From contig PAHW01000023.1 of assembly GCA_002705305.1 (NCBI GenBank), positions 6,251 to 56,884 on the forward strand: a DNA stretch of 50,634 nucleotides, in the 5' to 3' direction. The notes beneath the pieces were generated by a model, which was given only the letters and a program-made list of their open reading frames with translations, had not been told where the DNA came from and did no database searches. Position numbers and translations under genes: made by a program. Origin of the DNA: Acidimicrobiaceae bacterium (GTDB taxonomy: Bacteria; Actinomycetota; Acidimicrobiia; Acidimicrobiales; Poriferisodalaceae). Below are positions 24,523 through 38,281 of this stretch, piece after piece (position 1 is the first letter of the stretch; every line of letters begins with the position of its first letter).

Positions 24523-25614
24523 CTAGTCGTCGATGACTTCTACGGCTTCGTTTTCATCGTCGCTCGTCTGATCATCGGCTGATGAATCGTTCATCCCAAG
24601 TTGTGACCTTATTCGACCGTCGATTTCAACCATGACTTCAGGGTTTTCTGTCAGGAATTGTTTCGCGTTCTCTCTACCTTGGCCAAGCTGTTCACCTTCG
24701 TAGGTGTACCAGGCACCGGATTTTTTGACGATGCCTTGCTCCACCCCGACATCTATGAGCGATCCTTCGCGGCTGATTCCTTTGCCGTACATGATGTCAA
24801 ATTCGGCCTGTCTGAATGGGGGCGCAACCTTGTTTTTGACAACTTTGATGCGGGTACGGCCACCCGTGATTTCACCATCGGACTTGATTGCTTCTATTCG
24901 ACGAATATCTATACGAACCGTGGAATAGAACTTCAAAGCTCGACCACCAGGAGTTGTCTCGGGGCTACCGAACATGACTCCAATCTTTTCTCGTAACTGG
25001 TTGATGAAGATGCAGATGGTTTTGGTTTTATTGAGATTGGCAGTGATTTTGCGTAGTGCTTGGGACATCAGCCGGGCTTGTAAACCGACGTGGGTATCAC
25101 CCATTTCGCCTTCGATTTCAGCTCGTGGGGTGAGTGCTGCTACTGAGTCAATGACCACAACATCGATAGCTCCTGAACGAATCAGCATGTCAGTAATTTC
25201 AAGAGCTTGCTCACCAGTGTCGGGCTGGGAAATGAGCAGTTCGTCGACATCAACGCCGATGTTTTTGGCGTAGTCCGGATCCATGGCGTGTTCTGCATCT
25301 ACATAGGCACAGATTCCACCATTGCGTTGGGCTTCTGCCACAACATGCATAGCGAGTGTGGACTTTCCCGATGCTTCGGGACCGTACACCTCAACGACTC
25401 GTCCTCGCGGGAGACCTCCGATGCCAAGGGCAACGTCGATTGCCAAGCTGCCTGATGAAACGGCTTCTACTTTCATTTGGCCGCGTTCTCCCATTTTCAT
25501 GACAGAACCTTCGCCAAATTGACGCTCAATCTGCGCCAATGCCATATCGAGTGCCTTTTCTCGTTCCACGCTGCTGTCCTCCTCAGACGTATCTTCGACT
25601 TCAAGTGAAGTCAC
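24523..25614 (-). CDS. recA: recombinase RecA
   Basis: This 363-residue RecA catalyses strand exchange and activates LexA self-cleavage. Walker [10 protein letters not shown] is at 78-86, with [17 protein letters not shown], the L1 region ([12 protein letters not shown]) and the L2 region ([16 protein letters not shown]) intact. No intein is present. The acidic C-terminal tail ([14 protein letters not shown]) is normal. The GTG at 25614 lies about 74 bases downstream of a TAATAAT-like -10 and two GAAC-N4-GTTC SOS boxes, so it should be LexA-repressed. The usual recX partner is not found downstream. Confidence 0.97.
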
Positions 25615-25702: not shown

Positions 25703-25718
25703 CCGAACGTTTGTTCGG
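25703..25718. promoter_or_regulatory. SOS (LexA) box 1
   Basis: CCGAAC-GTTT-GTTCGG is a perfect 6+6 palindrome with the GAAC-N4-GTTC core used by LexA in actinobacteria and Bacillus. It overlaps the proposed recA -35 region, the classical place for repression. Confidence 0.75.
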
Positions 25719-25727
25719 GCAAGTACC

Positions 25728-25739
25728 GAACAAATGTTC
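25728..25739. promoter_or_regulatory. SOS (LexA) box 2
   Basis: GAAC-AAAT-GTTC, with a preceding C, agrees with the CGAACRNRYGTTC-type consensus. It is centred 23 bases from box 1, about two helix turns, so two LexA dimers could bind the same face. It lies 54 bases before the crotonase start and may also control that gene. Confidence 0.72.
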
Positions 25740-35860: not shown

Positions 35861-38281
35861 GTGGCTATTCCCGTCGATCCCCGACCCCAGCCATCAAAAA
35901 CGGTTGCCGACGTCCCCATCACTTTCGTTGACGACTCCTCGTTAGAAGATTTCACGTCGGCGCTACGTCAATCGGTGATGAGAGCTGTCGACACAGAGAC
36001 GGTCTATGACCCCGGAGCGTTCAGGGGACCTAACAGCAGCCCTGGAAGTCTCCGAGTTATTTCTGCTGCCACTCGCGACGAAGACGGGTCGGAAAACGCC
36101 TGGGTTCTTGACGTACGTCAATTGGACTCTTCAGCTGTTGCCGCCGCGCTGAATGGAATCACCGCGGATGCTTGGAACGCCGATTTTGACGCTCGCGTAA
36201 TTGATCGGGACCTCTTCGCGCCTACACGCGAAAGTGATGCGTCTCTGGGTTCCATGATGTGGTGGGATGCTCAGCTAGCGGATGCTTTGCTGCATCAGGG
36301 TCGCACCGGATTTGGTTTCTACCATGGACTTGCCTGGGCCGTTGAGTGGTACCTCGGACTACGCGTCGAAGGTAAAGGGAGTACGCAACTCTCGTACACC
36401 AAAGACAACCCCTTAAGCGTCGAACAGGTGACCTACGCGGCGGCAGACGCGGTAGAGACATTGTGGGTCGCCGAAGAAATCAGGTCCCGAATCGCGACAT
36501 CGGGTCTGACGGAGGTGTGTCGACTCGAACAACATGCGCGTCCATTTCTAGACCACATGGAGAGGGTCGGACTTCCTTTTGATTGGGTGGCCTGGGAACA
36601 GCGACTTGCCGGCATGGACCAGCAACGAATCCATGTGTCTGGACGTTTGGCCGAATTAACTGGAGGCGGGCAAGGCACCTTGTTCGACGGAGCGTTGGAG
36701 CCGTCGTGGAATCCTGGAAGTGAACGTCAGGCGAAGGAAGCTCTCAACGAATGGGGCACTGAAGAGGTTCTCGCGTGGTCTTCGAACGCGTTCGGCGAGA
36801 AGCGTTTGTTGCTTCCGACCGACCCGCTCACTGCAACTGTGCTCTCCGAAATCGGTGGGGATATTTGCCAAGCGTTGTTGGAGTATCGGGATCTGACCAA
36901 AGTCCTTTCCACCTATGGAGATTCGATTCGTGAACACATAGATAGCGAAGGTCGGATGCATTCGGAGTACTTACAGGTCGTGGGGACAAACACCGGAAGA
37001 CTGGCAAGTAGAAGGCCAAATGCGCAGAACTTCTCTCCGAAAATGAAACAGCACATTAGACCGGCCGATTCCGACAGAGTCTTCGTTTACTCAGACTTGA
37101 GCCAAGCGGAGTTAAGATTCGCCACCCAGGTAGCGGGCGACACCAACCTGCGTGACGCGTTCAGAGCAGGCACCGATATCCACTCCGCGACCGCTGAACG
37201 CATGTTCAACGTTGACATGCAAGCCTTGGCCGCATCCGAACCGGGGAAACATACCGAATTCCGCGATAAAGCTAAGCGAATCAATTTCGGAATTGTTTAT
37301 GGTCAACGAGGCGCCGGGTTGGCACGGAGTCTCTCTCAGGCCGGAGTTGAGACAAGTACCGACGAAGGTCAACGACTCCTTGAGCAATATCTCGCTGCCT
37401 ATCCCCAAATTTCGGCTTGGGTCAACCGTCGCGATCGGTTCGTTGAAGGGTTAGCTTCGTCGCCTCACAACATCGACTGGCAACTCACTCTTCGACTACA
37501 CACCATTTGGCCTCAAATACGTCAGGCGGTCCGCCAACATCGCGATGAGTACCGCAATTGGCCATCTGCTGAAGAGGTGTTTACCCGTCTGGGTTCACCC
37601 TGGACGATCGACGAAATTGCTTGGACCCTGTCGTTTGAGGCGCCGGTGGTCCTCACCGAAGATCTTGAAGCTTTCGGATTTCAGTCCTTTACTGAATCCG
37701 GCCGTCGACAACAGTTCACATTTCACACCGAGGGTGTTTTGGGACAAGCAGCCAAAACCATTGTCAGTTCGTTGAAAGAGGGACCAGAACGAGTACGCCG
37801 GACCGTGTCCGAGAGTCGCAATGTGAACTTCGAAAGTGCTGGCCGGCTTATGTCGTCAGCGGAGATCACAAAATTGCTAGAGGACCGGCCGCTGCGGCGA
37901 GTCATTGTCGATGAGGTCGAGACAAGCATGGGGCTCGAAGCAATGCTTCTTCTTCTAAATAAGTCTCTGGCTTCGCGCGTGTCACAGATGGCCAACGCTT
38001 ACAGAAATGCTCCTATTCAAGGGGGTGTCGCGGATGTGATGTTGGAGGCCTATGGGCTTCTCCACGAACGGCTATCTCAATTTGATCGAGCAGTCGGAGT
38101 TCAAACGGTTCACGACAGCGTCGTGGTGGAGTGCGATCGCGTTGATGCTGTCAGGGTGGCGCACATGGTGAAGGACACCATGGAAGAAGCCATGCAAATT
38201 TGGTGCCCCGATGTTGCAGCCAAGGCCGACACTGATATCCGGGCCAGTCTCTCTGACCGTGACGTTATTGAGAGCATCTAA
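35861..38281 (+). CDS. family A DNA polymerase with 3'-5' exonuclease and large insertions
   Basis: This 806-residue protein joins a proofreading domain to a Pol I-type polymerase, without the 5' nuclease. The exonuclease motifs are intact: Asp44-Thr-Glu46 (VDTET), Asn106-x2-Phe-Asp110, and Tyr192-x3-Asp196. The polymerase has motif A Asp412 (SDLSQAELR), motif B Arg468, Lys472, Tyr480 (DKAKRINFGIVYG) and motif C His751-Asp752 with Glu757. Between motif B and NAPIQG (716-721) lie about 236 residues against about 80 in Taq polymerase. The GRR turn sits at 614-616, so roughly 75 extra residues occur on each side of it. The GTG at 35861 has TAGTGT six bases upstream. It is likely active; its job (repair, lesion bypass or other) is unknown. 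Confidence 0.9.
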   Translation: MAIPVDPRPQPSKTVADVPITFVDDSSLEDFTSALRQSVMRAVDTETVYDPGAFRGPNSSPGSLRVISAATRDEDGSENAWVLDVRQLDSSAVAAALNGITADAWNADFDARVIDRDLFAPTRESDASLGSMMWWDAQLADALLHQGRTGFGFYHGLAWAVEWYLGLRVEGKGSTQLSYTKDNPLSVEQVTYAAADAVETLWVAEEIRSRIATSGLTEVCRLEQHARPFLDHMERVGLPFDWVAWEQRLAGMDQQRIHVSGRLAELTGGGQGTLFDGALEPSWNPGSERQAKEALNEWGTEEVLAWSSNAFGEKRLLLPTDPLTATVLSEIGGDICQALLEYRDLTKVLSTYGDSIREHIDSEGRMHSEYLQVVGTNTGRLASRRPNAQNFSPKMKQHIRPADSDRVFVYSDLSQAELRFATQVAGDTNLRDAFRAGTDIHSATAERMFNVDMQALAASEPGKHTEFRDKAKRINFGIVYGQRGAGLARSLSQAGVETSTDEGQRLLEQYLAAYPQISAWVNRRDRFVEGLASSPHNIDWQLTLRLHTIWPQIRQAVRQHRDEYRNWPSAEEVFTRLGSPWTIDEIAWTLSFEAPVVLTEDLEAFGFQSFTESGRRQQFTFHTEGVLGQAAKTIVSSLKEGPERVRRTVSESRNVNFESAGRLMSSAEITKLLEDRPLRRVIVDEVETSMGLEAMLLLLNKSLASRVSQMANAYRNAPIQGGVADVMLEAYGLLHERLSQFDRAVGVQTVHDSVVVECDRVDAVRVAHMVKDTMEEAMQIWCPDVAAKADTDIRASLSDRDVIESI

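Follow-up and report, generated by a model that had tools for sequence, protein, structure and literature searches.

The locus and the encoded protein

The window, that is, the whole stretch of 50,634 nucleotides analysed here, lies in a 2.54-Mb Acidimicrobiia genome (G000:C30). At 35861-38281 on the forward strand it carries an open, intact reading frame of 806 amino acids that encodes a family A DNA polymerase with a 3′-5′ exonuclease (Table 1). Its GTG start at 35861 is common to the near relatives. The protein and its orthologues are referred to below as the insert clade, after two additional segments in the polymerase domain.

Table 1. Features of the polymerase gene, with residue numbers of the 806-aa protein and positions in the window
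Feature	Residues	Window position	Strand	Basis or remark
Complete gene, insert-clade family A DNA polymerase, 806 aa		35861..38281	+	ORF, Pfam, orthologues
3′-5′ exonuclease domain	20-213	35918..36499	+	DEDDy residues D44/E46, D110, Y192/D196 invariant in 43 rows
QGTLF, candidate sliding-clamp-binding motif in thumb-base loop	271-275	36671..36685	+	Conservation; consensus QxxLF (PMC12309361)
Motif A, SDLSQAELR	411-419	37091..37117	+	Ala where PolA1 mostly has Ile
Motif B / O helix, RDKAKRINFGIVYG	468-481	37262..37303	+	Alignment
Insert 1; helices 540-564, 570-577, 583-590	534-603	37460..37669	+	Weak sigma-70 region 3 similarity
Ordinary Pol I beta-hairpin with GRR turn	604-621	37670..37723	+	Model, alignment
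Insert 2; helices 623-636, 640-653, 666-672, 676-690, 692-708	622-706	37724..37978	+	Conserved LExRxLRR
Q helix with RNAPIQGG	711-738	37991..38074	+	Asn712 at the Klenow R841 position
Motif C, VHDSVV	750-755	38108..38125	+	Ser where PolA1 has Glu

Pfam recognises DNA_pol_A (PF00476) in two stretches of the protein (2.8e-54) and DNA_pol_A_exo1 (2.5e-9). Neither Pfam nor NCBIfam matched a 5′ nuclease in the 806 residues, the N-terminus starting directly at the 3′-5′ exonuclease, as the first-pass annotation had proposed. The top NCBIfam match is PRK14975.1-3 (NF011539) with 9.6e-63 and 212 bits vs. a cut-off of 640, while the APEX model NF011538 reaches 58.6 bits vs. a cut-off of 389. The protein belongs to family A: D412, K472, Y480, and D752 are conserved, motifs A, B, and C are present, and the fold matches. 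An AlphaFold2 model built with 43 sequences has a mean pLDDT of 90 and a pTM of 0.87. In Foldseek, the core of the whole model matches the Bst, Klenow, and apPol structures with target TM of 0.72-0.82; for the PolA1 enzymes, E is about 1e-24 and the target TM is 0.76 on Bst and 0.74 on Klenow.

An added domain in the fingers

The distance from the motif B Tyr480 to Asn716 of NAPIQG is exactly 236 residues. The nine aligned PolA1 proteins all have a spacing of 79 between these two points. PRK14975.1-3 and.1-3-like enzymes range from 73 to 79, phage and cyanobacterial-plasmid enzymes from 69 to 85, and the APEX and APEX-like group from 67 to 100. Seventy extra residues precede the GRR hairpin, vs. 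0-1 in the other family A proteins aligned, and about 75 follow it (84 here vs. 9 in PolA1), so that both the unusual spacing and the roughly equal excess on the two sides of the turn, read from the sequence in the first pass, hold true. None of the aligned PolA1, APEX, APEX-like, PRK14975.1-3, cyanobacterial plasmid, and phage enzymes has residues corresponding to 534-603 or to about 75 of those in 622-706; the refuting case named in the first-pass annotation, an alignment of the extra residues with ordinary Pol I segments, does not apply. Altogether the added domain in the fingers comprises about 155 residues.

The insert is found in each of the 43 aligned orthologues, which come from separate genomes, and none of them has lost it. 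Their spacing runs from 209 to 280, the value of 209 belonging to a truncated, divergent row. A frameshift or misassembly is ruled out by this shared architecture and by the pN/pS of the inserts (0.05-0.44). Between close relatives, pN/pS is 0.05-0.30 for insert 1 and 0.17-0.44 for insert 2, vs. 0.11-0.18 for the rest of the protein, which indicates that both inserts are under purifying selection at the sequence level, weakest on insert 2. Conservation is lowest in insert 2, with a mean column identity of 0.47, and its rate of evolution exceeds that of the core. Four insert residues, W540, R561, R676, and R679, are invariant in the 43 rows. The inserts had been described as rich in Trp and Arg, which does not apply generally: insert 1 here contains 7% Trp and 8.6% R+K, insert 2 contains no Trp, and across the family Trp makes up 2.5% of the inserts vs. 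2.2% overall. The inserts carry a net charge close to zero or slightly below it.

When the region 524-712 was predicted alone, it reached a pLDDT of 92.7 and a pTM of 0.86, which suggests that the insert is probably an autonomous, compact helical domain. In the model, three helices are followed by the ordinary GRR hairpin and then by five helices ending at the Q helix. The predicted structure supports a location in the fingers, between the P helix and the Q helix, in agreement with the first-pass placement. By topology, we infer that the insert lies adjacent to downstream DNA.

For the window's own insert, searches of Pfam, PHROG, and PDB sequences returned no convincing match. Among 42 insert sequences, Pfam Sigma70_r3 (PF04539) reached 11, all of them relatives of the window's protein; these rows are related to one another, and their number is not independent evidence, while 20 other families reached one sequence each. 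The best PF04539 match has an E of 7.3e-5 and 23.2 bits vs. the Pfam cut-off of 25.3, and all matches align in a single register across the first two to three helices of the insert. A home-built model of sigma region 3 hits the same place in several orthologues and finds nothing in insert-free polymerases or reversed sequences. A profile-profile comparison of the insert with sigma region 3 (hhalign) gave P 0.0032, a value passed by 1 of 60 insert shuffles. The top Foldseek matches of the insert are almost all sigma factors, with non-significant values (E 0.03-0.5, TM about 0.25), and a PDB profile search with the insert yielded no sigma factor. Insert 1 shares with sigma-70 region 3 a long helix plus two short helices and an xPTxEE motif; it differs in that its best score remains below the Pfam cut-off and its structural match stands at E 0.03 and TM 0.25. 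These data are suggestive of a weak resemblance to the region 3 helix-turn-helix.

Catalytic residues and a candidate clamp-binding motif

The five exonuclease residues D44, E46, D110, Y192, and D196 occur in 43/43 rows. The polymerase site is partly non-standard. Motif C reads HDS instead of HDE in 42 of the 43 orthologues, and the Ile position of motif A is occupied by Ala in all 43. The latter corresponds to E. coli I709, a base-selection residue whose changes have been used to make error-prone Pol I (PMC6518619). Residues S769, F771, and R841 of E. coli Pol I act in strand displacement, the downstream DNA lying on the fingers (PMC6846080). With Klenow numbers assigned to columns from the family A alignment and known motif positions, the S769 position here is R or G, the F771 position is mostly A or G, and the R841 position is Asn in 41/43 and otherwise Pro. 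Since the aromatic wedge at the F771 position is also absent from the other non-PolA1 groups sampled, its loss is, judging from the alignment, not specific to the insert clade. The earlier statement that all polymerase and exonuclease residues are present therefore stands for the exonuclease and has to be qualified for the polymerase (HDS, the motif A Ala, and Asn or Pro at the R841 position).

The first-pass annotation overlooked a QxxLF sequence at residues 271-275, at the base of the thumb. Its Q is found in 42/43 orthologues, and L and F in 43/43, with the two middle positions variable. QL[S/D]LF or QxxLF is a common sliding-clamp-binding consensus (PMC12309361), and from this we infer that the loop may bind the beta sliding clamp. 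A five-residue motif alone proves nothing. The loop is modelled as a low-confidence hairpin (pLDDT about 69), and it is from this hairpin that its exposure is predicted. Calibration of the motif on DnaE1 and Pol IV gave no strict QxxLF in the DnaE1 of the same genome; QLDLF or QLSLL was seen in Pol IV-type proteins from two other genomes of the order. PolA2/APEX uses a QxxLF clamp motif (120-QSSLF-124) in a loop of its vestigial exonuclease (PMC12926913), and all six APEX rows aligned have QxxLF at this N-terminal, exonuclease site.

Several variants were observed in passing. In one orthologue (L071) the Gln of the motif is replaced by His (GGGHGTLF); another (L095), either divergent or truncated, shows a changed motif C. 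The PolA of the Allocoleopsis franciscana plasmid pMIC7113.01 (L141) contains QLPLF at residue 259, in the same thumb-base loop, another possible clamp motif. A group of APEX-like polymerases (L119-L123; Acidimicrobiia f7, family f91), forming a sister clade to APEX, lacks the QxxLF of true APEX.

Distribution and phylogenetic position

A scan of the genome_contigs collection (84,980 species) found 64 loci, almost all of them assigned by label to Acidimicrobiia or Actinomycetota; the scan consisted of two short peptide patterns, which remote relatives could escape. Two of the loci bear other titles, Pleurocapsa (L096) and Acidobacteria (L035), yet code for the insert polymerase of Acidimicrobiia; these titles are probably binning or naming errors in public records. 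Of 347 genomes of the order, 29 have the insert domain; they belong to families f1, f17, f18, f25, and f114, and the domain always sits in a polymerase-sized frame. In family f1, a full or near-full copy is present in 35 of 37 genomes, one of the remaining genomes having a 67-residue fragment and one having none. Across the phylum, a single genome out of 296 sampled contains the domain, namely the window's own. Two scans of viral contigs and tblastn searches of phage and plasmid records revealed no insert-clade member. By sequence, the clade is restricted to Acidimicrobiia in every collection searched. The carriers are uncultured, mostly aquatic relatives of actinobacteria.

A tree of 48 rows was built from the polymerase core, with the inserts left out. 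The insert-clade proteins are monophyletic (100/100) on a long stem of 1.6 changes per column. A branch with support 97/99 separates PolA1 and three actinophage-type enzymes from the insert clade, APEX, PRK14975, and others. The insert clade thus shares its side of the tree with PRK14975 proteins, among them enzymes of cyanobacterial plasmids and the polymerase of mycobacteriophage Maco6. It may group with the APEX, APEX-like, and PRK1-3like rows (support 88/87); the insert clade and APEX are each monophyletic and separate. In terms of sequence, the insert clade represents its own lineage among the bacterial family A DNA polymerases and occurs beside ordinary PolA1.

A 2026 survey divides the bacterial family A enzymes into PolA1, PolA2, PolA3, and a minor PolA1-like group (PMC12926913). 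The survey covers complete genomes only, so lineages represented almost entirely by metagenomes lie beyond its reach. A description of the insert clade was not found in the literature, and the clade is distinct and, as far as the searches reach, undescribed. It shares with PolA1 (E. coli Pol I, Klenow, Bst) the fold and catalytic framework, but it possesses the insert, its motifs A and C are altered, and the N-terminal 5′-3′ exonuclease/FEN domain, i.e., the 5′ nuclease, is absent, which places the 806-aa protein outside PolA1. PolA2/APEX (e.g., S. coelicolor CAD55317; PMC12926913) is likewise a second PolA confined to Actinobacteria, devoid of the 5′ nuclease and equipped with QxxLF. However, the APEX exonuclease is inactive, its clamp motif is located in an exonuclease loop, and it has no insert, whereas in the insert clade the exonuclease is intact (residues in 43/43) and the motif is at the thumb base (271-275); as the two also form separate clades, the protein does not belong to PolA2/APEX. 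The PRK14975.1-3 proteins (NF011539) also combine exonuclease and polymerase without a 5′ nuclease; unlike the insert clade, they have a spacing of 73-79, an HDE motif C, and no QxxLF in the actinobacterial members.

Other polymerases and genomic context

A normal polA, which the first-pass annotation had proposed to look for, was found in the same genome. This one other family A polymerase (C5:20507-21628, 912-aa frame; L001:1489-4089, minus strand) is a PolA1 of the ordinary type: it has a 5′ nuclease and the usual spacing, but the exonuclease acidic residues are absent. The insert polymerase may therefore be the cell's sole proofreading enzyme of family A. The genome also encodes two DnaE-type polymerases (including DnaE2), a Pol IV-type match, and a weak ImuB-type match near the second DnaE. 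Replacement of other polymerases by the insert enzyme was considered and ruled out, Y-family matches being present in 60 of 61 relatives and DnaE-type matches in all. An APEX-type gene occurs in 3 of the 61, and no genome of this set has both an APEX-type and an insert polymerase; three are too few to speak of exclusion.

The polymerase gene follows two aminotransferase genes (gaps of 8 and 22 bases) and precedes a SnoaL-like gene. Close relatives have the same arrangement; distant ones do not. Since the neighbours are metabolic and vary between lineages, the gene neighbourhood says nothing on the pathway. No operon partner emerges either, as the neighbours differ in distant lineages. There are no phage genes beside the polymerase gene, and among close relatives the chromosomal context is stable.

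No consistent LexA-type box (GAACN4GTTC) was found in the 350 bases upstream of 31 orthologues, and there is none before the window's polymerase. The recA gene of the same window (24523-25614, minus strand) has two perfect GAACN4GTTC boxes upstream, at 25705-25716 and 25728-25739, which serve to calibrate the LexA site for this lineage. The polymerase gene itself contains one perfect palindrome of LexA type, GAACGCATGTTC (37196-37207 of the window), probably by chance.

Proposed role and alternative explanations

The reading we favour, at about even chances, is that of a proofreading, clamp-tethered gap-filling polymerase whose added domain would contact downstream DNA and which would fill gaps to a ligatable nick, complementing PolA1. 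The clamp, through the QxxLF loop, would bring the polymerase to gaps. The added domain would sit where the downstream DNA leaves the fingers and would hold or read that DNA. With weak strand displacement, a gap would be filled with proofreading up to the next 5′ end, and a nick would be left for the ligase; filling would stop there because the enzyme has no 5′ nuclease and lacks, at the F771 and R841 positions, the residues that canonically separate the strands. The enzyme could in this way complement a PolA1 with a degraded exonuclease. In E. coli, the clamp slows nick translation by Pol I and speeds ligation (PMC6010275), an effect that, by analogy, fits gap filling. A point against it is the pair of motif changes: Ala in place of I709 and Ser in place of the motif C Glu may point to altered fidelity or rate, which sits poorly with high-fidelity gap filling. 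A more ambitious version, in which a captured sigma region-3-like helix-turn-helix in the fingers holds the downstream duplex and the clamp-tethered proofreading enzyme represents a further PolA functional class, appears rather doubtful.

The first-pass annotation suggested a specialised repair or bypass polymerase. A specialised second polymerase is indeed well supported by the separate polA and the distinct conserved clade, and repair is plausible; bypass found no support. A lesion-bypass or end-joining enzyme would use the inserts to grip a damaged or poorly paired primer-template, as Pol theta and the plant organellar polymerases do. Both of these are family A polymerases that have gained insertions in the polymerase domain, and the plant enzymes, which unite exonuclease and polymerase, owe bypass and microhomology joining to them with the exonuclease active (PMC7699545). 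The Ala at the I709 base-selection position in 43/43 orthologues, where changes make Pol I error-prone (PMC6518619), points in the same direction. However, these eukaryotic polymerases have three insertions each, at other sites that differ between the two and are unrelated in sequence (PMC7699545), and no homology to the insert was found. Bypass becomes less plausible because the exonuclease residues are invariant, DnaE2 and the ImuB-type and Pol IV-type matches are already in the genome, and there is no SOS box upstream of the gene; we regard it as unlikely.

We consider it similarly improbable that the enzyme is a domesticated phage or plasmid replication polymerase of the PolA3 kind, with no special repair role and with the insert as a docking platform for a lost or unknown replisome partner. 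An intact 3′-5′ exonuclease and the absence of a 5′ nuclease are shared with PolA3 (PMC12926913), and the side of the tree is shared with PRK14975, cyanobacterial plasmid enzymes, and the Maco6 polymerase. But PolA3, compared here by description, is scattered across lineages, with close phage homologues and a prophage location, whereas the insert clade is limited to Acidimicrobiia, is near-universal in family f1, has a stable chromosomal context free of phage genes among close relatives, and was not encountered in the viral contigs, phage, or plasmid records searched. The insert might also be a structural or stabilising elaboration off the DNA, the enzyme being a redundant proofreading Pol I. 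The low conservation of insert 2 (0.47), its evolution faster than the core, and a net charge that does not favour a DNA-binding surface would agree with this; the four invariant residues W540, R561, R676, and R679, the compact fold never lost among orthologues, and its position between structural elements near the downstream DNA make it very unlikely.

Implications

The insert clade lies outside the reported features of PolA1 and PolA2 and fits only part of those of PolA3. If the QxxLF loop does bind the clamp, family A would contain two lineages with a probable clamp motif, located at different sites, and clamp tethering would seem to have arisen at least twice within PolA. The fingers can accommodate a complete additional domain at the P-Q junction, and this offers a way to probe how they handle downstream DNA.
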